In this document: positions 1-37,514 of the stretch, in pieces
How the letters are laid out: each line of letters begins with the position of its first letter
Position numbering within the stretch: position 1 is the first letter of the stretch
Virus record (IMG/VR): IMGVR_UViG_3300047551_000808
Coordinates: 1 to 37,514 of that record
DNA: 37,514 nt
From: a virus
Direction: 5' to 3' (one strand)
Made by a program: the position numbers and the translations under genes
The notes under the pieces: model-generated
What the model saw: the letters and a program-made list of their open reading frames with translations, nothing else
The model's database searches: none
What the model was told of the DNA's origin: nothing

Positions 1-981
1 TTACTTGCGGATATGGTCCTCCCCGCAGAAAAAATTTCATGGCTACGGGAAAACCCTAGTATTGGGAAGACAGCCTTTATCCTGGCTGGCGGCAATCAAC
101 ACTTTGCCGGAATAAACCCACGCGGCGGTCAAGAGAATACCAGGCTGCACTACACCTACAAATTCCTGCCGTTTACTTTGACCCAGGTTTATGCCGGTCG
201 TATGGCGCAGCAAATTTGCCAGCCTGATTACATAACCACTGACGCCACTGCTTGTGTTTCTAGCCTAAAAGTCTTGATGGACTGCCAAATGCTAGAGGCT
301 TACGGGTTTACCAGGTTCATTATCTTGGGTGTCGAGGACGCTGTAAGTAATTCCGTCCTGGAATTCTTTGGGGATGCTGGCGCCTCACTGACTATAAAAC
401 GGGAGGAAGAAGGTGTTTTGCCTAGCGCCTTTGATCAAAAAAACGGGGGATTCTACGTTGGGCAGGGCGCGGTGTTTGCGGTATTTCAAAGTGAAAAGGA
501 GGTCCTGCATTACGGGCTTACCCCGAAGGCTAGATTGTTATCAGCATATCATGCTGCCGAAATTACTAAGAATGCCATTGGACAGCGGGATGACGGAGAA
601 GGCTATGTCAATGCCATTGAAGGTGCGTTAGCGTATGGGCAGGTTAATCGCAAAGACGTTTCAATTGTTAAGTCTCATGGCACTGGAACCGCATCAAACA
701 ACGCTTCTGAAAGGGCTGCTTTATTTAGGACACTCAACAACTTTGTTGCCACTTCATACAAACAAAAAATAGGTCACACAATGGGTGCTTCGGGGTTGCT
801 AGAAACACTACTTTTGCTTGACAATGTAGCATGTGGTGTTGTACCAGGTATAGCGAACAGAACTGAAACTGATCATGTGTTTTTGTCTCAGGATTGTGAG
901 GCGCCTGATGGACTGATACTAAGTGTTGCGGCTGGTATGGGCAATGTGTATTCGGCTGCGATCTTTGAACCTGTGAGGTAG
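1..981 (+). CDS. 3-oxoacyl-ACP synthase (FabF/KAS II-like), 5'-truncated copy
   Basis: The frame is open from base 1, so the N-terminus is cut by the window edge; by comparison with the copy at 36473 about 47 residues are missing. Three thiolase-fold condensing-enzyme motifs are visible: the nucleophile in DATACVSSL (Cys codon 253-255), SHGTGT (His codon 676-678) and the KQKIGHTMGASG block (His codon 775-777). In full-length numbering these are about C132, H273 and H306. The C-to-H spacing (141) and H-to-H spacing (33) are close to E. coli FabF (C163, H303, H340), and the conserved Lys five residues before the second His is present. The family condenses acyl thioesters with malonyl-ACP. The gene follows an ACP gene on the circular map and is followed 4 bases later by the next gene. 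The assignment to the family is firm; the substrate is unknown. This is most likely the same locus as 36473-37514, as a strain variant. Confidence 0.9.
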   Translation, partial: LLADMVLPAEKISWLRENPSIGKTAFILAGGNQHFAGINPRGGQENTRLHYTYKFLPFTLTQVYAGRMAQQICQPDYITTDATACVSSLKVLMDCQMLEAYGFTRFIILGVEDAVSNSVLEFFGDAGASLTIKREEEGVLPSAFDQKNGGFYVGQGAVFAVFQSEKEVLHYGLTPKARLLSAYHAAEITKNAIGQRDDGEGYVNAIEGALAYGQVNRKDVSIVKSHGTGTASNNASERAALFRTLNNFVATSYKQKIGHTMGASGLLETLLLLDNVACGVVPGIANRTETDHVFLSQDCEAPDGLILSVAAGMGNVYSAAIFEPVR

Positions 982-985
982 TGAC

Positions 986-1432
986 ATGGCAAAAATGGTT
1001 GACAGCCGAGAGAAGGAATTAAGCGTCGAAGACATAATCGGCATCGCCGGAATGAATACCGACGCAGGGGTTCAGGTCGGGCAATTGATTCAGATGATCA
1101 ACGCTGAATTACAAATGCCTGACACGCTGTTCCTAAGACAAGGTAACACACTCTTCATCATTCACAAAGCAGAGCCCCGCGTGGGCTTTTTTCGCGCATT
1201 GAATGCTGATACTGCAAACAACTTCTTGCAAAACGGCACGGAGTTTATCAAAGCCTGCTACAAAATGGGCTTCGACACAATGGCGACTCAGTTTGATGAT
1301 CCGACTTTGCTGAGTATTTTCCGCTACATATCTCAAAATCCTCCTAACCCTGACATGGGTTATCAGGTAGAAAAGACGGAAGACGGGGGCTTTTATGTAA
1401 CTGTCCAGTGTGGACCAAGGCGGGAGGCATAA
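986..1432 (+). CDS. hypothetical 148-aa protein after the ketoacyl synthase
   Basis: I do not recognise this gene with confidence. It starts 4 bases after the ketoacyl synthase stop and ends 3 bases before the next gene, so it lies in one transcript with both. The protein is soluble-looking, mixed alpha/beta, with no signal peptide or membrane segment. A central stretch around residues 60-110 (VGFFRALNADTANNF, then KMGFDTMATQFDDPTLLSIF) resembles small GNAT-like proteins that sit next to internal virion proteins in short-tailed phages. No acetyl-CoA binding motif is clear, so that is only a hint. Its position between the acyl enzymes and the ejection proteins makes it a candidate partner of either. 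Confidence 0.75.
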   Translation: MAKMVDSREKELSVEDIIGIAGMNTDAGVQVGQLIQMINAELQMPDTLFLRQGNTLFIIHKAEPRVGFFRALNADTANNFLQNGTEFIKACYKMGFDTMATQFDDPTLLSIFRYISQNPPNPDMGYQVEKTEDGGFYVTVQCGPRREA

Positions 1433-1435
1433 AAG

Positions 1436-3547
1436 ATGAGCGCAGCCGTTAAAGCCGTTGGAAAAGTTGTATCCGGCGCAGTTGAAGCAGTTGGTAGCGC
1501 AGTAAAGACTGTTGTTGAGGTCGTCGAAAATACTGCTAGAGCCGTTGTAGAAAATCCTGAAATTCTTGTAATTGCAGTTGTTGCGCCGCAGATATTGCCT
1601 GCGATTGGCGTGCCTGCAATTGCTGTTCAACCGATCACGGCTGGTCTTATCTCAGCGTCTCAGGGCGGTGACATTGAGGACATTGGTAAGGCTGCGCTTG
1701 GCGCTTACATTGCACCACAAGTGGCTGGCAGGGTGGGCGGTGCGGTGGCGGAAGCAACGGCTGGCTCTTCATTGCAAAACGCTTTGGCGAGTGCAGCCGG
1801 TTCCGCTGCTGGCTCCGCAGCCGGTGCTGCAATTGTTGGTGGTGATGTTGGTAAAGCAGCGCTTTTAGGTGCTGCTGGTGGTGCTGGCGCTTCAGTTGGT
1901 CGTGAATTGGCTGCTTCGTATGAGTATGGCACCACACCATTTAGCGATCAAAACCGAGCATTGATTGCGCAAGATGCTGGCATTAACAAATTCAATCAAA
2001 TTGCAGCCGACATTGGATCAGGTGTTGCGCGTGGAGTTGTTGGCGGTGATTTTGAGGGTGAATTGACCAATGCAGTTTCCGGCATTGCAAACCGAGAAAT
2101 TGGTGAAATGTTGCGTGACGCATTCAAATCAACACCTGGCGCAAAAGAAACGCAGAAAGCGCAAGAGATTCTTGCTGCCGAACTTGATTCAAACCCTGTG
2201 TATCAAGAGCAAGTGCAGTTGGCGCAAATTGCTAACGGCAATGTGCCATTGAGCGTCGATCAACAAATTGATGCACTTGCAGAAGCGTTAGCGCGTGAAG
2301 AGTTTGATATTGCGGCAGAAGAAAATGCAATACAAACTGCTGCGCTACCTGCTGTTGCGCTGCCAGTCGCTAGTGCTGCTGCCCGTGCAGCAATGCAGTC
2401 TGCTCCACAAGTGGTAGCGCGAATTGCACGTTTTGCCGCAAATGATCCACGTTTTGCGCAAGTCATGGCAACAAACCCTTACGTTCAGCGTTTGCTTGCA
2501 TCGGCTGGCGTGAGCATTACGATCTCTTTGACTGGCGACACAGTGGTAACGCCTGCTACTCCGCCTGATCAATCCGCTGCTGAAACCGCACGTTTGAACC
2601 GTTATGCCGCTGACATTCAAAAAAGCCTGCCCAAAACCAATACGCAGCAAATTACACGTTTGGAAAATGCTGCACGCCAGGCTGAACTGTCGTCAGCGCG
2701 TGAAGAATTAGTGCGCTTGGATCGTCAAGGATATAACGTTGACAGAGAATTAAGCCGAGTTGATACGGAACTCAATCGTATTTCTCAGCAATTCCCGTTG
2801 ACTGAGCCAACGATTGACGCAACGCCTGAGTTTGAGCCTGGGACTCTGCCGCCTACTACGGCACCTGAAGTTGAGCCTGAAATCACTGTGCCACGCGCAC
2901 CTGAATTTACTCCGCTTCCGGAAGTTGAAGTTGCTCCTGGTCGTGCGCCTCAGATTGATATTGACGTGTCTCCTGGCACTCAGCCAAGTCCACGTCCAGC
3001 GACTAGACCTGGAACTCGCCCAGGCGAAAGACCGGCGGAGGAACCTGCGCCTGGAACAAGTCCAGTTACTCGTCCAGTTACGCGCCCTGATACTGCCGTT
3101 CGTCCAGGCGAAGAGCCTGCTGTTGAGCCGGTATCTGACAAAGAGCCAGCCTCTAGAACTGAGCCAGCAAGACCTGGTGGAACACGAACTGATGGTCGTC
3201 GTCCTGTTACTACTCAGCCAGTGGATATTGATGAACTGTTTACTGATGAGGAAATCCTTAATTTGATTCGTGAAAGTTTTGGTGAGGACTATCTTGAGGA
3301 TACGCAAGTTGAGGGAATGGAATCTGATACACAAACCGGCGGAAGATTCCCTGCTACCGTTGATATTGAAATGGCAGGTGCAGCAAAACGCCCTGACGTC
3401 CGCAAGTCGTTAAGTAGCCGCCAAGTTGGGCAGGGTGTGGCTGCGATTGTTGGAGATAAGGACCCGACTTTTGGCGGTGATCCTAACGTACAGCAAGACG
3501 TGTGGAACGTGCGTTCATTGAGACTGAGAAAGGCATTGGGACTATGA
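1436..3547 (+). CDS. putative internal virion / ejection protein (703 aa)
   Basis: This is a large protein without a catalytic motif that I can see. Residues 1-150 are rich in Ala, Gly and Val, with alternating amphipathic and hydrophobic stretches and glycine-zipper-like patterns (AAGSAAGSAAGAA), which suggests membrane insertion. The middle is helical and Ala/Gln rich. Residues about 455-595 form a low-complexity Pro/Glu/Thr/Arg segment with RPGTRPGERP-type repeats, followed by an acidic section with DELFTDEEILN. Podoviruses place such long, helical, Ala-rich proteins between tail and lysis genes as internal core proteins that enter the host envelope with the DNA. The function is inferred from size, composition and position. 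Its stop overlaps the next start as ATGA. Confidence 0.7.
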   Translation: MSAAVKAVGKVVSGAVEAVGSAVKTVVEVVENTARAVVENPEILVIAVVAPQILPAIGVPAIAVQPITAGLISASQGGDIEDIGKAALGAYIAPQVAGRVGGAVAEATAGSSLQNALASAAGSAAGSAAGAAIVGGDVGKAALLGAAGGAGASVGRELAASYEYGTTPFSDQNRALIAQDAGINKFNQIAADIGSGVARGVVGGDFEGELTNAVSGIANREIGEMLRDAFKSTPGAKETQKAQEILAAELDSNPVYQEQVQLAQIANGNVPLSVDQQIDALAEALAREEFDIAAEENAIQTAALPAVALPVASAAARAAMQSAPQVVARIARFAANDPRFAQVMATNPYVQRLLASAGVSITISLTGDTVVTPATPPDQSAAETARLNRYAADIQKSLPKTNTQQITRLENAARQAELSSAREELVRLDRQGYNVDRELSRVDTELNRISQQFPLTEPTIDATPEFEPGTLPPTTAPEVEPEITVPRAPEFTPLPEVEVAPGRAPQIDIDVSPGTQPSPRPATRPGTRPGERPAEEPAPGTSPVTRPVTRPDTAVRPGEEPAVEPVSDKEPASRTEPARPGGTRTDGRRPVTTQPVDIDELFTDEEILNLIRESFGEDYLEDTQVEGMESDTQTGGRFPATVDIEMAGAAKRPDVRKSLSSRQVGQGVAAIVGDKDPTFGGDPNVQQDVWNVRSLRLRKALGL

Positions 3548-16825: not shown

Positions 16826-17707
16826 CTAGGCGGCGATCTTCTCGCCCTCGCTCTCTTCCCTGGCGGCAGGCACCAGGTAATCAAGCGCTTTTTGTGCCTG
16901 GGCGCTGGCGCTTAGAATGAATTTTTTATCATTGCGGAGCGCTTTTAACCAGGATTGAATATAACCGGCGTGCCGCAGGTCCCCGTCAATTCCCAGGTGA
17001 GCGCATAGCATGGCGGCACCCAATTCCGCGCACAATTCCTCGTAAGCGTAGCCCTCTGATCCAAACCGGGCAGGCGTTAAGCGCTTTAGGCGCTTTTCGT
17101 GCCCTGTCGCGTGTACGCTCTCATGCAATAAAGTGGCGTGATAATTCGCGGCATCCGGGAAAGCGGCAGGCGGCGGCATCACAATGGCATCAGTGCTAGG
17201 GCGATAAAATGCCTGGTCCCCGGCATGTGTTAAGCCCCCGGATAAGCCCAGGCGCTCCACAATCGCCAGGACGTCGGCGCTTGTGTCAAATGCTGGCGCT
17301 GGCGTCTCAGGCAATGGGGGGAGTGTTAAGCCCTCGCATTGCTCCACGTTAAAAACCCAGTAATGCTTGATAAACGCATAGGCGCTTGTCACGCTCTCGC
17401 CGTTTTCGCCGGTAGTCTCTTTTTTGTGTACGTTCCAGTAAACCACTGGCGTGCCCTTTTCGCCTGGTTTCACATTGCCGCCCAGGGCTTGCGCTTGCTT
17501 GAATGTGACAAACCAAGGCATCGCGCAGGGTTGCATCCCTAGCCAAAAATGGTTAATGCCGCGATAGATCGTGCCGCTTGCCGGGTTATATGGCATCCCG
17601 GCACCTGGCGCTTGTTTCAGAGTACGCCAGGGTTTAACCCAGGGCGTCGCGCCTTTCTCTAGTTCGCTGATGATTCGATCGGTAATTGTTTGTGCAATGT
17701 CTAACAT
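16826..17707 (-). CDS. ArdC-like antirestriction protein (ssDNA-binding plus zincin domain)
   Basis: The 293-residue protein has the two-domain layout of ArdC/TraC-type proteins. Residues 1-125 match the N-terminal single-strand DNA-binding domain: ITDRIISELEKGATPWVKPW, NPASGTIYRGINHFWL, then GEKGTPVVYW. Residues 145-290 hold a metallopeptidase-like domain with HESVH (H195, E196, H199) and the downstream acidic helix YAYEELCAELGAA. ArdC proteins enter with plasmid or phage DNA and protect it from host restriction endonucleases. The gene has its own promoter-like element (17762-17790), and its DNA is CCAGG-rich like the flanking intergenic regions. This points to acquisition from a plasmid as one unit. 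All zinc-site residues are present. Confidence 0.85.
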   Translation of the reverse strand: MLDIAQTITDRIISELEKGATPWVKPWRTLKQAPGAGMPYNPASGTIYRGINHFWLGMQPCAMPWFVTFKQAQALGGNVKPGEKGTPVVYWNVHKKETTGENGESVTSAYAFIKHYWVFNVEQCEGLTLPPLPETPAPAFDTSADVLAIVERLGLSGGLTHAGDQAFYRPSTDAIVMPPPAAFPDAANYHATLLHESVHATGHEKRLKRLTPARFGSEGYAYEELCAELGAAMLCAHLGIDGDLRHAGYIQSWLKALRNDKKFILSASAQAQKALDYLVPAAREESEGEKIAA

Positions 17708-18833: not shown

Positions 18834-19037
18834 ATGAGCCTGGAAAAAGTGAACGGAGCGCCTACGGCGCTTGCAGCCGAAGACGCCAAGAAGGACTACA
18901 TGGCGCGGGTGTACAAGATGAGCCATGCCGAACTGTTCCATGAACTGATGCGGGTGCATACGGCAAGTGCGCAGATGATCAATGAACTTCAAGCGCAATT
19001 GGCTGCCAAGGAAGAGGCGGAGAAAAATGAACCTTGA
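18834..19037 (+). CDS. helical hypothetical protein (67 aa)
   Basis: I chose ATG 18834, three bases after the micropeptide stop; GGGAG lies just upstream. The protein is helical, and residues 38-64 could form a coiled coil (ELMRVHTASAQMINELQAQL). It overlaps the oxygenase gene by 11 bases. No family recognised. Confidence 0.65.
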   Translation: MSLEKVNGAPTALAAEDAKKDYMARVYKMSHAELFHELMRVHTASAQMINELQAQLAAKEEAEKNEP

Positions 19038-19638
19038 ACTGCTCTTTCCAACGCCGGTGGCGTTCTTTGATCTTGGCTTTGAACTGGTTGAGGAAGAAAA
19101 GGCATTCTTGCTAGACCTGGAAAGGCGACCCAATGAAGGAAATCAATCATCGGTAGATAACTACCTACTAGACAAGCCTGAACTGGTCCGTATATCTGAT
19201 CGTGTTCAAGAGTGTATTGATGAGTATGTGAATGACGTATGGAAAGCGGACATTGAAGCCTACGTTACCCAGTCCTGGTTGAACTGGACTAAGCCTGGGC
19301 AGTGGCATCACAAGCATGCGCACCCTAACAGCCTGTATTCCGGCGTGCTTTATATCGACGTTGAAAACGACCGTGATCGGATTTCGTTTTACCAGGACGG
19401 TTATCAGCAATTAAAGCCCAGGTACAAAGAATGGAACCGGTGGAACTCTTCGTCTTGGTGGCTTCCGGTTAAGACCGGATCAATTATTTTGTTTCCTTCA
19501 AGCCTAACGCACATGGTTGAAACCGTGCCAGGTGAAGTAATTGGCAAGGAACGCATAAGCCTAGCCTTTAACACATTTGCAAAACAGATTGGAGATAACA
19601 AAGACCTGACTGAATTAGTGCCGAGGCATTTTTCCTAA
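19027..19638 (+). CDS. 2OG-Fe(II) dioxygenase, PF13759-like (203 aa)
   Basis: The ATG at 19027 follows GGCGGAG. The double-stranded beta-helix residues fit the putative 2OG-Fe(II) oxygenase family found widely in aquatic phages: SWLNWTKPGQWHHKHAHPNS with candidate metal ligands H97 and H99, SGVLYI, the distal His in GSIILFPSSLTHMVE (H162), and the 2-oxoglutarate-binding Arg in ERISLAFN (R176). Such enzymes hydroxylate a protein or small molecule using oxygen and 2-oxoglutarate; phage substrates are unknown. The N-terminus (LLFPTPVAFFDLG) is also typical. The gene precedes a methyltransferase and could act with it. Confidence 0.85.
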   Translation: MNLELLFPTPVAFFDLGFELVEEEKAFLLDLERRPNEGNQSSVDNYLLDKPELVRISDRVQECIDEYVNDVWKADIEAYVTQSWLNWTKPGQWHHKHAHPNSLYSGVLYIDVENDRDRISFYQDGYQQLKPRYKEWNRWNSSSWWLPVKTGSIILFPSSLTHMVETVPGEVIGKERISLAFNTFAKQIGDNKDLTELVPRHFS

Positions 19639-19647
19639 CGAGTGCCT

Positions 19648-19932
19648 ATGACCGACGGGGGGTTATTTGATGAAAGGCTGAAATGCCGTGCTTGTGGACA
19701 AGTCCATGAGCATGCCAAGATCGTTCGCCTCCCCGACGGTAGAGAGGTAGGCAACTACAGCGAAGAGTCGCGGCGCTGGCATGAAGCGGCTTGGGTGTTA
19801 AAGCGGTATCGAAGCAAACGCACGCGCTTGGAATACTTGAGCGCGGTTGAGGATAAAAGAGGCACGCAGGCTAGAAATGAACTGCGTGAAGAAATGTTGA
19901 GAGTTTGGAACTGGAAAAAAGGGGCGCAATGA
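19648..19932 (+). CDS. hypothetical protein with short zinc-binding motif (94 aa)
   Basis: The ATG is at 19648 (a GTG at 19642 is an alternative; ribosome site is weak). An N-terminal CRACGQVHEH could bind zinc together with another subunit. The rest is charged and helical (SEESRRWHEAAWVLKRYRSK). The function is unknown. The gene ends 4 bases inside the methyltransferase gene and lies two genes before the terminase; it could be a terminase-associated protein, but I see no clear HTH. Confidence 0.65.
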   Translation: MTDGGLFDERLKCRACGQVHEHAKIVRLPDGREVGNYSEESRRWHEAAWVLKRYRSKRTRLEYLSAVEDKRGTQARNELREEMLRVWNWKKGAQ

Positions 19933-20708
19933 ACATACTGAATACGAGACACGGGCAACTGATGGTCCGACGTGGACCTGATCTCATAAGCAATCACTTG
20001 GTCCAGTTAGGAGAGTACGAGTGGCAGGTGGTTGAACTATGCCGCTTGCTGGCTGGTCCGTTTGATGAGGGCGTGGTGTTTGACATTGGTGCCAACATGG
20101 GCACGGTCACAGTCCCACTAGCCAAGGCGTTTCCTCATTACAAGTTTATTTCCTACGAGCCACAGTTACATGTGTTCTACCAACTCTGCGGCAATGTGGC
20201 GCTTAACGATCTAACCAACGTTGAAGTGCGTAACAGGGCACTAGGAAGCGACTATAAAAACTTTTGGATTGATATGCCTGACTACGCAACCAACGGCAAC
20301 ATTGGTGCCTGGTCTATGTCAGAGTTTGTGCGCGAAAACAGCCATGAGGCGCGTGCTGGTGGCGCAAAGCAATATGTCCGCCAGGATGTTTTGAACGACG
20401 TGCATTGCGAGGTGCCGGTGCGCCTGATCAAAATGGACGTGGAAGGCATGGAACTGGACATTCTCAAGGGAGCCAATTACTTTCTGCAAGAGCATAAGTA
20501 TCCGCCCCTGGTCTATGAATGCTGGAAGCAGTTTGAGTGGTACCAGCCTACGGCTGCCGAATTGGAAGAGTGCGTATGCGGCATGGGCTATGACACCTAC
20601 CACTTGGGCAACACCATCGTGGCGCTGCACCCTGACAACCCATTAAAAGTCGTAGTAAAAGAAGAGGACGGCAACGTGCGTTTTGAGGTACCCCGTGATG
20701 CAATTTGA
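19929..20708 (+). CDS. FkbM-family SAM-dependent methyltransferase (259 aa)
   Basis: I chose ATG 19929 after AAAAAAGGGGCG. The class I methyltransferase SAM site is visible at residues 50-59 (VFDIGANMGT) with an acidic residue at the end of strand 2 (SYEP). The FkbM signature IKMDVEGMELDIL is at 167-179. FkbM enzymes O-methylate sugars or other small groups. In phages they often accompany glycan or nucleotide modification. It overlaps the terminase gene by 11 bases, so it is expressed with DNA packaging genes. Together with the oxygenase upstream it forms a small modification set whose target is unknown. Confidence 0.85.
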   Translation: MNILNTRHGQLMVRRGPDLISNHLVQLGEYEWQVVELCRLLAGPFDEGVVFDIGANMGTVTVPLAKAFPHYKFISYEPQLHVFYQLCGNVALNDLTNVEVRNRALGSDYKNFWIDMPDYATNGNIGAWSMSEFVRENSHEARAGGAKQYVRQDVLNDVHCEVPVRLIKMDVEGMELDILKGANYFLQEHKYPPLVYECWKQFEWYQPTAAELEECVCGMGYDTYHLGNTIVALHPDNPLKVVVKEEDGNVRFEVPRDAI

Positions 20709-35620: not shown

Positions 35621-35842
35621 GTGGAGCCACAGTTTTTGATCAACATTCTTTTTGCTGCCGCTGGTGCTGCTTTTGGGTGGATTCTGAATAGCCTGTCGCG
35701 CTCAATTGTTCGGATTGAGGACCGGATTTCGGAAATGCCCATGATTTACGTCAACCGTGATGACTACCGGGCAGACATTACTGAAGTCAAAAGCATGCTT
35801 GGCAAGATTTTTGATCGTCTTGACCAAAAGGCTGACAGATGA
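35621..35842 (+). CDS. small membrane-anchored protein (73 aa, GTG start)
   Basis: I chose GTG 35621 after a GAGAGGAAAAA site. It has one N-terminal membrane segment (NILFAAAGAAFGWILNSL, residues 8-25), then a charged coiled-coil-like region (SRSIVRIEDRISEMPMIYVN, ITEVKSMLGKIFDRLDQKAD). This is like small phage membrane proteins of the spanin or holin-helper kind, but lysis genes are elsewhere. It is the first of four coupled genes ending in the ketoacyl synthase, overlapping the next gene by 4 bases. A membrane scaffold for the acyl enzymes is a speculative option. Confidence 0.7.
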   Translation: MEPQFLINILFAAAGAAFGWILNSLSRSIVRIEDRISEMPMIYVNRDDYRADITEVKSMLGKIFDRLDQKADR

Positions 35843-36186
35843 GCCTGAACATGGATGCCTTGGCTACGCCGATTTTTGGTGAGCCGGACAGCCTGCGGGA
35901 CTTTTTGTTTGAAAACGGTATCCAGCACCAGGTCTTTTCTGAGCGTTTAATTGACGCTGGATTCTTCGTTCCGCGTTATCCGATCATTGATGCCGACCCC
36001 CAGGACTTAGATGATTGGCTGCAAATACACCAACTTGAACACCAACGCTTTGCTACAATTCTTAACTTGAATGATCCATTTAATCTGTTAGACTTGGACT
36101 TCAACCAGGAAGATGACTTTTACGATTGGGTAAACAGTCACTTGTTAATACATGAACAGATAGCAAGAGTGTTGGGGGTAACATGA
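35839..36186 (+). CDS. triple-repeat His-containing protein upstream of ACP (115 aa)
   Basis: The sequence contains three copies of a D-x-L-x-D-(F/W)-L-x-x-(H/N)-x-x-x-H helix: DSLRDFLFENGIQHQVF, QDLDDWLQIHQLEHQRF, and DFYDWVNSHLLIHEQIA. Each gives a helix pair with one or two His. The protein is acidic and probably forms a small helical bundle; the His may bind metal. It is coupled by ATGA at both ends, with the membrane protein before and ACP after. I do not know the family. Position makes it a candidate accessory of the ACP/ketoacyl synthase pair. Confidence 0.7.
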   Translation: MSLNMDALATPIFGEPDSLRDFLFENGIQHQVFSERLIDAGFFVPRYPIIDADPQDLDDWLQIHQLEHQRFATILNLNDPFNLLDLDFNQEDDFYDWVNSHLLIHEQIARVLGVT

Positions 36187-36476
36187 TAGATGATACAGAG
36201 TTTCTAAGACTTTTCAACGCTGTAGCCAAGGTCGCCAAGACCCCTTCAAACCCTCCCGTTCCGGCAGAAAGCCTGGATCAAAACTTCCAAGAATTGAACA
36301 TTGACAGCCTCGACGGGCTGATCATGGGCATGTATTTGTGCGAGATTTTTGACATTCCTGAAGAGGTGGGCAAAAACTTCCAGCCACAGACTGTAGGCGA
36401 ATTCCAGGCAATGCTGTATGAGCATGCCCAAAAGACCGATATTGTGGTCGATGAAGTCATTAAGAGCCTCAAATGA
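36183..36476 (+). CDS. acyl carrier protein
   Basis: A 97-residue acidic four-helix protein with the carrier signature: ELNIDSLDGLIMGMYLCEIF, with the DSLD motif placing Ser42 at the start of helix 2, where 4'-phosphopantetheine is attached in ACPs (Ser36 in E. coli). Helix 1 (EFLRLFNAVAKVAKTPSNPP) and the following FDIPEEVGKNFQPQTVGEFQ match the ACP layout of helix 2, loop with I(P/A), and helix 4. A phage-coded ACP would need host phosphopantetheinyl transferase, since none is visible here. It overlaps the ketoacyl synthase gene by 4 bases (ATGA), so the two are coexpressed. Confidence 0.85.
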   Translation: MIDDTEFLRLFNAVAKVAKTPSNPPVPAESLDQNFQELNIDSLDGLIMGMYLCEIFDIPEEVGKNFQPQTVGEFQAMLYEHAQKTDIVVDEVIKSLK

Positions 36477-37514
36477 GCCTGTTTTTGACCTTCGGAAACA
36501 CGGTTTACAACAAAAAAACGACCGTTTTAGACGAAATACGCTACCCACAAAGGGTTCATTGGCTGCCTGAAACCTACGCCAAAACTAAGACTGGGTTCGT
36601 CTATGTGCCGCATTTACTTGCGGATATGGTCCTCCCCGCAGAAAAAATTTCATGGCTACGGGAAAACCCTAGTATTGGAAAAACGGCATTTATCCTGGCT
36701 GGTGGCAATCAACACTTTGCCGGAATCAATCCTCGCAGTGGTCAAGAGCAAACCAGGCTGCACTACGTTTACAAATTCCTGCCATTTTCTTTGACTCAGG
36801 TGTATGCCGGTCGCATGGCGCAGCAAATTTGCCAGCCGGACTACATAGCCACAGACGCCACTGCCTGCGTTTCTAGCCTCAAGGTCCTTATGGACTGCCA
36901 AATGCTTGAAGCCTACGGGTTTACCAGGTTCATTATCCTGGGCGTCGAGGACGCTGTAAGCAACTCAGTTTTAGAGTTTTTTGGGGATGCCGGAGCCTCT
37001 TTGACCATGAAGCGGGAAGAGGAAGAGGGTGTTTTGCCTAGCGCTTTTGATCAGAAAAACGGTGGTTTTTACGTTGGGCAGGGCGCGGTCTTTGCAGTCT
37101 TGCAAACCGAAAAGGAGGTCCTGCATTACGGGCTTACCCCGAAGGCTAGATTGTTGTCAGCATACCATGCCGCTGAAGTGACTTCCAACGCCATAGGTCA
37201 GAGGGATGATGGAGAAGGTTACTGCAATGCAATTGAGGGTGCGTTAGCGCATGGGCAGATTAACCGCAAAGACATTTCAATTGTTAAGTCTCACGGTACT
37301 GGAACCGCGTCTAATAATGCTTCAGAGAGGGCTGCACTATTTAGATCACTCAATAACTTTGTTGCCACTTCGTACAAACAAAAAATTGGTCACACAATGG
37401 GTGCTTCGGGGTTGCTAGAAACACTACTTTTGCTTGACAATGTAGCATGTGGTGTTGTACCAGGTATAGCGAACAGAACTGAAACTGATCATGTGTTTTT
37501 GTCTCAGGATTGTG
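36473..37514 (+). CDS. 3-oxoacyl-ACP synthase (FabF/KAS II-like), 3'-truncated copy at window end
   Basis: The gene starts at an ATGA overlap with the ACP stop and runs off the window. Its 47 N-terminal residues (MSLFLTFGNTVYNKKTTVLD) are absent from the copy at base 1. The rest aligns collinearly with bases 1-898, with roughly 15 amino-acid changes and one extra Glu codon in a REEEEG run. The active-site Cys (DATACVSSL), SHGTGT and KQKIGHTMGASG motifs are unchanged. Joined with the start copy the protein is about 374 residues, somewhat shorter than FabF (about 410), mainly at the N-terminus. The family catalyses decarboxylative Claisen condensation on ACP. The two copies are best read as alleles of one gene. 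Confidence 0.9.
   Translation, partial: MSLFLTFGNTVYNKKTTVLDEIRYPQRVHWLPETYAKTKTGFVYVPHLLADMVLPAEKISWLRENPSIGKTAFILAGGNQHFAGINPRSGQEQTRLHYVYKFLPFSLTQVYAGRMAQQICQPDYIATDATACVSSLKVLMDCQMLEAYGFTRFIILGVEDAVSNSVLEFFGDAGASLTMKREEEEGVLPSAFDQKNGGFYVGQGAVFAVLQTEKEVLHYGLTPKARLLSAYHAAEVTSNAIGQRDDGEGYCNAIEGALAHGQINRKDISIVKSHGTGTASNNASERAALFRSLNNFVATSYKQKIGHTMGASGLLETLLLLDNVACGVVPGIANRTETDHVFLSQDC
37388..37514. repeat. terminal 127-bp exact repeat of 772-898
   Basis: The last 127 bases are identical to 772-898. The mismatch immediately before the run (T versus A) shows it ends exactly at 127. Upstream of it, 36614-37387 aligns to 1-771 with many substitutions and a 3-bp indel. Bases 1-65 also match 36614-36678 exactly. 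Confidence 0.95.

Follow-up and report, generated by a model that had tools for sequence, protein, structure and literature searches.

The window analyzed here, an entire virus record of 37,514 bases, encodes an acyl carrier protein (ACP), a FabF-like β-ketoacyl-ACP synthase (KAS), a protein of 148 residues with a predicted GNAT acyltransferase fold (gp148), and an ejection-type protein (gp703). The first three genes recur in this order among the virion genes of many related phages. As far as gene content and order can indicate, this suggests that many uncultured short-tailed phages may synthesize a fatty-acyl group destined for an injected protein. The relevant features of the window are as follows.

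35621..35842, + strand: gp73, a small membrane-anchored-looking protein, neighbor in window-type loci (phrog_462, 1.6e-9)
35839..36186, + strand: gp115, a triple-repeat protein, neighbor in window-type loci (no Pfam match; cluster 12, confined to window-type loci)
36183..36476, + strand: phage ACP, 97 residues, with Ser42 as the 4'-phosphopantetheine attachment site (profile, invariant residues, predicted fold)
36473..37514, + strand: FabF-like KAS, codons 1–347 of 374 (PF02801, PF00109, FabF alignment)
1..898, + strand: second KAS allele, an assembly duplicate of 36614–37514 and not a separate gene (88.5% identity, shared ends, dN/dS 0.058)
899..981, + strand: 3' end of KAS beyond the circular junction, comprising its final 27 codons and the stop (L004 read-through, open joined frame)
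986..1432, + strand: gp148, predicted GNAT-fold acyltransferase without the acetyl-CoA P-loop, candidate acyl-transfer enzyme (predicted structure)
1436..3547, + strand: gp703, ejection-type protein with N-terminus MSAAV, candidate acylation target (N-terminal motif, GNAT co-occurrence)

The ACP and KAS genes and the circular junction

A preliminary description of this DNA had proposed an ACP with a DSLD motif and Ser42 (codon 36306–36308), and the family-level evidence bears this out. The ACP family profile matches ACPs in the PDB (best match 3.7e-5), and D41, S42, and D44 are invariant in 80 of 80 sequences (the best 80 of 164 relatives). The AlphaFold model (pLDDT 93.5) has a four-helix fold in which Ser42 starts helix II (residues 42–55). 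The Foldseek matches listed are ACPs or ACP-containing entries, at weak E-values of 0.07 and above; such values are usual for small helical proteins. The suggested comparison with PF00550 gave a divided result, as the window ACP alone falls below the Pfam PP-binding cut-off (14.6 bits vs 20.8, E = 0.041), whereas 18 of 32 family members match PP-binding, with a best E-value of 3e-4.

The KAS exceeds both Pfam cut-offs in the HMM search that the same description had advised, with PF02801 at 6e-13 and PF00109 at 1.3e-4 (49.3 and 22.1 bits vs 20.8), and its family profile matches FabF structures at 3e-26. Residues C132, H274, K302, and H307 align with C163, H303, K335, and H340 of Escherichia coli FabF, in agreement with the intact C-H-H residues and FabF-like spacing noted earlier, and these catalytic residues are invariant in all of the best 80 of 164 relatives. 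The codons for C132, H274, and H307 lie at 36866–36868, 37292–37294, and 37391–37393. The phage enzyme thus shares with FabF/KAS II the C-H-K-H set, both ketosynthase domains, and an ACP partner, but is shorter (374 vs 413 residues), has Met361 in place of the gatekeeper Phe400, belongs to a separate clade with a long stem, and scores far below the NCBIfam cut-offs (81.2 vs 493.75 bits for the FabF equivalog TIGR03150). The reported ATGA overlap of the ACP and KAS genes is present at 36473–36476. A similarity to cispentacin AmcF, a ketosynthase that works with AmcG, was set aside, as no AmcG-like partner was seen.

The KAS reading frame runs off the end of the record because the circular genome was cut within this gene. 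Positions 1–898 are 88.5% identical to the last 901 bases (36614–37514), with exact shared ends of 65 bases on the left and 127 bases on the right; the latter would fit 127 as a common assembler k-mer. The independent contig L004 spans the join of the record ends with 100% identity over 1867 + 5999 bases, and the KAS frame stays open when the ends are joined, giving a complete protein of 374 residues encoded by 36473–37514 and then 899–981. The simplest reading is that the record represents a complete genome of about 36.6 kb, circularly permuted, and that the assembler passed through two strain alleles of this one gene. These alleles differ mainly at silent sites, with a dN/dS of 0.058 (about 0.06), and ACP and KAS are under strong purifying selection. 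A pair of KAS paralogues at the contig ends, similar to a KS-CLF pair, was ruled out, as the two copies represent a single gene whose alleles the assembler had linked. The 148-residue protein previously placed just downstream is indeed adjacent to KAS, but at 986–1432, across the circular junction.

The KAS tree proposed in the preliminary description returned a single phage-only clade (support 100/100) far from bacterial FabF/FabB-type enzymes, with a stem of 5.0; bacteria contributed only 10 rows to this tree. A survey of 395 genomes from one phylum gave no match above 92 bits, compared with 642 bits for the phage type, which occurs in one contig of a metagenome-assembled genome (MAG) in that survey. 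This contig (L084; from a "Balneolaceae" MAG; JAGYJQ010000016.1, 37,605 bases) shares the phage gene order of the window type and looks, from that order, like a sibling phage genome binned into the MAG; any host assignment from it is therefore only a hint. An auxiliary metabolic gene newly captured from the host does not fit a phage-only clade with host copies of at most 92 bits. The earlier concern that the locus might be a host fragment or a misassembly finds some footing in the record ends, which are an assembly artifact of two KAS alleles. The same cassette, however, is present on more than 100 distinct loci and in MW202545.1, a deposited complete circular phage genome, and the sampled bacterial genomes hold distant matches only. 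We therefore rule out a host fragment and consider this whole explanation vanishingly improbable.

A three-gene cassette among virion genes

A contig scan found KAS relatives encoded on 164 viral contigs. Among the best 80, ACP is present in every locus, far more often than chance would give, and gp148 in 74; in the other six, the contig stops inside or at KAS. The preliminary description had advised a search of other viral genomes for its four-to-five gene order. We considered 123 distinct loci, counting each different gp148 gene that was preceded by 1.5 kb or more of sequence. The order ACP–KAS–gp148 is found in 119 of them, while four lack both ACP and KAS and none has only one of the two. 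An ATGA or GTGA terminates the ACP reading frame in 114 of the 119 loci. Since each search took the closest 80 relatives, frequencies in more distant phages may differ.

The cassette occurs in two different tail backgrounds. In group A, the window type, the order is fiber–gp73–gp115–ACP–KAS–gp148–gp703. In group B, which is P22-like, it is tail hub–small protein–ACP–KAS–gp148–ejection-type protein, and MW202545.1 carries the annotation "phage stabilization protein" at the tail hub position. The placement among virion genes, between tail and ejection-type genes, is as first described. The suggestion that adjacent genes belong to the same unit holds for the 148-residue protein; the membrane protein gp73 and the triple-repeat protein gp115 are local neighbors, and we rejected them as core parts because another small protein replaces both in group B.

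In the KAS-less loci L115, L139, and L185, the small protein or gp115 is joined directly to gp148. Two others, L182 (4062–5000) and L187 (3708–5000), have in place of ACP–KAS a variable protein that by eye looks structural and DUF4214-like; its appearance led us to reject a replacement acyl enzyme there. No phosphopantetheinyl transferase (PPTase; PF01648), PF00698 acyltransferase, or SDR reductase (PF13561) was found in 21 related records, some of which are possibly fragments. The earlier remark that the phage encodes no PPTase, acyltransferase, or other fatty-acid enzyme stands for these three families, but not for acyltransferases as a whole, given the predicted fold of gp148.

The gp115 protein has three DW..H...H-like repeats and is 90–99% identical in many relatives whose KAS is about 70–80% identical, so that it appears from sequence to be under unusually strong constraint for a small protein without assigned function. 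In P22-like phages, whether or not they carry the cassette, a conserved "YDPR.H.W.SW" protein of 82–112 residues (L139:4721–4981 and relatives) separates the tail hub from the variable ejection module.

gp148 and the protein encoded after it

The third part of the unit, gp148, is confidently predicted to have a GNAT acyltransferase fold. Its model, built from the family alignment, has a pLDDT of 91.9 and the GNAT order of strands and helices. The PDB fold matches listed belong to GNAT acetyltransferases, ribosomal-protein-alanine N-acetyltransferases among them; 40 have E ≤ 0.001, and a few carry generic titles. Scans of Pfam, NCBIfam, and PHROG gave no convincing family for gp148, and Pfam and NCBIfam gave no match to a HlyC-type family. 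The P-loop motif R/Q-x-x-G-x-G/A is present in none of 38 members, as expected if the acyl donor is not CoA, while D6, S7, E41, G53-N54-T55, N73, and D75 are kept, and H60 almost always. The toxin-activating acyltransferases HlyC, ApxC, and CdiC likewise have a GNAT-like fold without the acetyl-CoA loop.

The protein encoded after gp148, to which we assign a probable role in ejection on the basis of position and composition, is variable in sequence with a fixed N-terminus, M-[S/G]-A-V-V. Ser or Gly occupies position 2 in 117 of 128 such proteins, against a background of 19.5%. A relaxed motif, M[SGA][AGSV]V, is found in 108 of the 128 and in 3 of 883 other genes, a count that describes rather than tests the pattern, since the motif was written after the sequences had been viewed. 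Among phages sharing the group B hub, the ejection-type protein is present in 19 of 19 with the GNAT gene and in 3 of 24 without it (Fisher P = 2e-9, a value that overstates independence because the contigs are related); the three exceptions are weak matches with different N-termini. The GNAT and ejection-type proteins thus appear, from this distribution, to be exchanged as a pair.

Divergent GNAT relatives without ACP–KAS (L300:5733–6137 and L330:4671–5168) precede proteins starting with MCDIG or MGWKK, so GNAT subfamilies may differ in the N-termini of their targets. Alternatively, the fixed N-terminus may have a role in assembly.

A possible acylation pathway and its alternatives

We propose that ACP, KAS, and gp148 form a phage acylation unit that is made together with virion proteins and acylates the ejection-type protein, a reading to which we give just under an even chance. 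The host would provide both the phosphopantetheinyl transferase that activates the phage ACP at Ser42 and the enzymes that charge it or supply malonyl-ACP. The KAS would then add a C2 unit to, or select, a particular acyl chain on the ACP, and gp148 would move the acyl group from the ACP to an amine of the next protein to be translated, the ejection-type protein. The most likely amine would be the N-terminus of gp703 (Ser2/Gly2 after Met removal), and the lipid, together with the V-rich N-terminus, could make it easier for this protein, once ejected, to get into the host envelope. Gene identities, gene order, translational coupling, co-occurrence, predicted folds, and conserved active sites are observed here, whereas the reactions, the acyl chain, the target, and the part played in entry are proposals. 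The more specific form of this proposal, in which a dedicated ACP, ketosynthase, and GNAT-fold N-acyltransferase attach a custom acyl group to a DNA-ejection protein at its N-terminus and so give it a lipid anchor in the manner of myristoylated proteins, we hold only tentatively. At four distinct loci, ACP and KAS are missing while gp148 and the same target N-terminus are retained, so gp148 is not strictly dependent on ACP and KAS. This suggests that the GNAT–target pair is the core, to which ACP–KAS supplies a special chain, and it leaves room for other explanations.

Known systems offer partial parallels. ACP-dependent GNAT N-acyltransferases with dedicated ACPs include FeeM and SbzC/SbzI with SbzG/SbzK; like the unit described here, these have a GNAT-fold enzyme with its own ACP gene nearby, and feeding by acyl-ACP is known for them (PMC6331615). 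They acylate small molecules and load their ACPs through adenylate-forming enzymes, whereas the phage unit has a ketosynthase and a virion operon, and no adenylate-forming ACP loader was identified in it. HlyC, ApxC, and CdiC use acyl-ACP to lipidate a protein whose gene lies next to their own, a modification that helps the effector engage the target-cell membrane (PMC8510554), and by analogy a comparable reaction may take place here. These enzymes modify internal lysines, whereas in 63 of the 128 candidate phage targets the first 40 residues contain no Lys, and we do not favor lysine acylation in this segment.

The preliminary description offered three roles for the ACP and KAS, of which acylation of a virion protein fits best; altered host lipids and titration of fatty-acid synthesis fit less well because the unit is translationally coupled and virion-linked. 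If gp148 joined the KAS–ACP acyl chain to an amino acid or lipid precursor, in the way of FeeM or LuxI, the product would be a small molecule or host lipid causing a late change in membrane or signaling. A dedicated ACP with a GNAT enzyme is typical of N-acyl amino acid synthesis (PMC6331615), the KAS catalytic set is complete, and phage copies of acpP and fabF have been interpreted as lipid genes. We nonetheless find this rather unlikely, as the cassette is locked to virion genes in both tail backgrounds, gp148 is exchanged together with a virion-type protein, and the 21 records hold none of the three enzyme families searched for.

That same absence would be consistent with KAS and ACP titrating host fatty-acid intermediates, as either decoys or regulators, without a dedicated product, but the invariance of all catalytic residues, the location among virion genes rather than early takeover genes, and the link to a GNAT gene, which this idea leaves unexplained, make it very unlikely. 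It is also unlikely that gp148 is a structural virion protein retaining a GNAT fold, with ACP–KAS a separate passenger pair that tunes host fatty-acid synthesis. The persistence of gp148 without ACP–KAS, its missing acetyl-CoA loop, and other phage proteins that share the GNAT fold without known activity point in this direction, whereas the adjacency of ACP–KAS to gp148 in 119 of 123 loci across divergent phages and the retention of polar E41, N54, T55, N73, D75, and nearly always H60 point away from it.

Phage ACP or fabF calls have been reported as auxiliary metabolic genes in R6L, R22Y, and roseobacter prophages, and the KAS is already labeled in one deposited genome. Those reports concern lone ACPs or a host-like fabG–acpP–fabF order, none described with a GNAT and an ejection-type protein. 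We found no paper in the open-licence literature describing an ACP–KAS–GNAT unit tied to an ejection-type protein, in keeping with the initial impression that no phage system of this layout had been described. The components come from known families; the unit and its setting, judged from sequence, appear to match no described phage system that we found. It has long been asked how short-tailed phages move their ejection proteins and DNA across the cell envelope. If the proposed acylation is correct, these loci, more than 100 of them distinct, would be a first sign of phages lipidating injected proteins; if the product differs, they would still encode a phage acyl pathway that has not been described before, with a deep ketosynthase clade of its own.

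Elsewhere in the window, we noted an anti-restriction protein (16826–17707, − strand; PHROG, 3e-76) and, just upstream of the terminase, a 2OG-Fe(II) oxygenase (18982–19638, + strand) and an FkbM-type methyltransferase (19905–20708, + strand).
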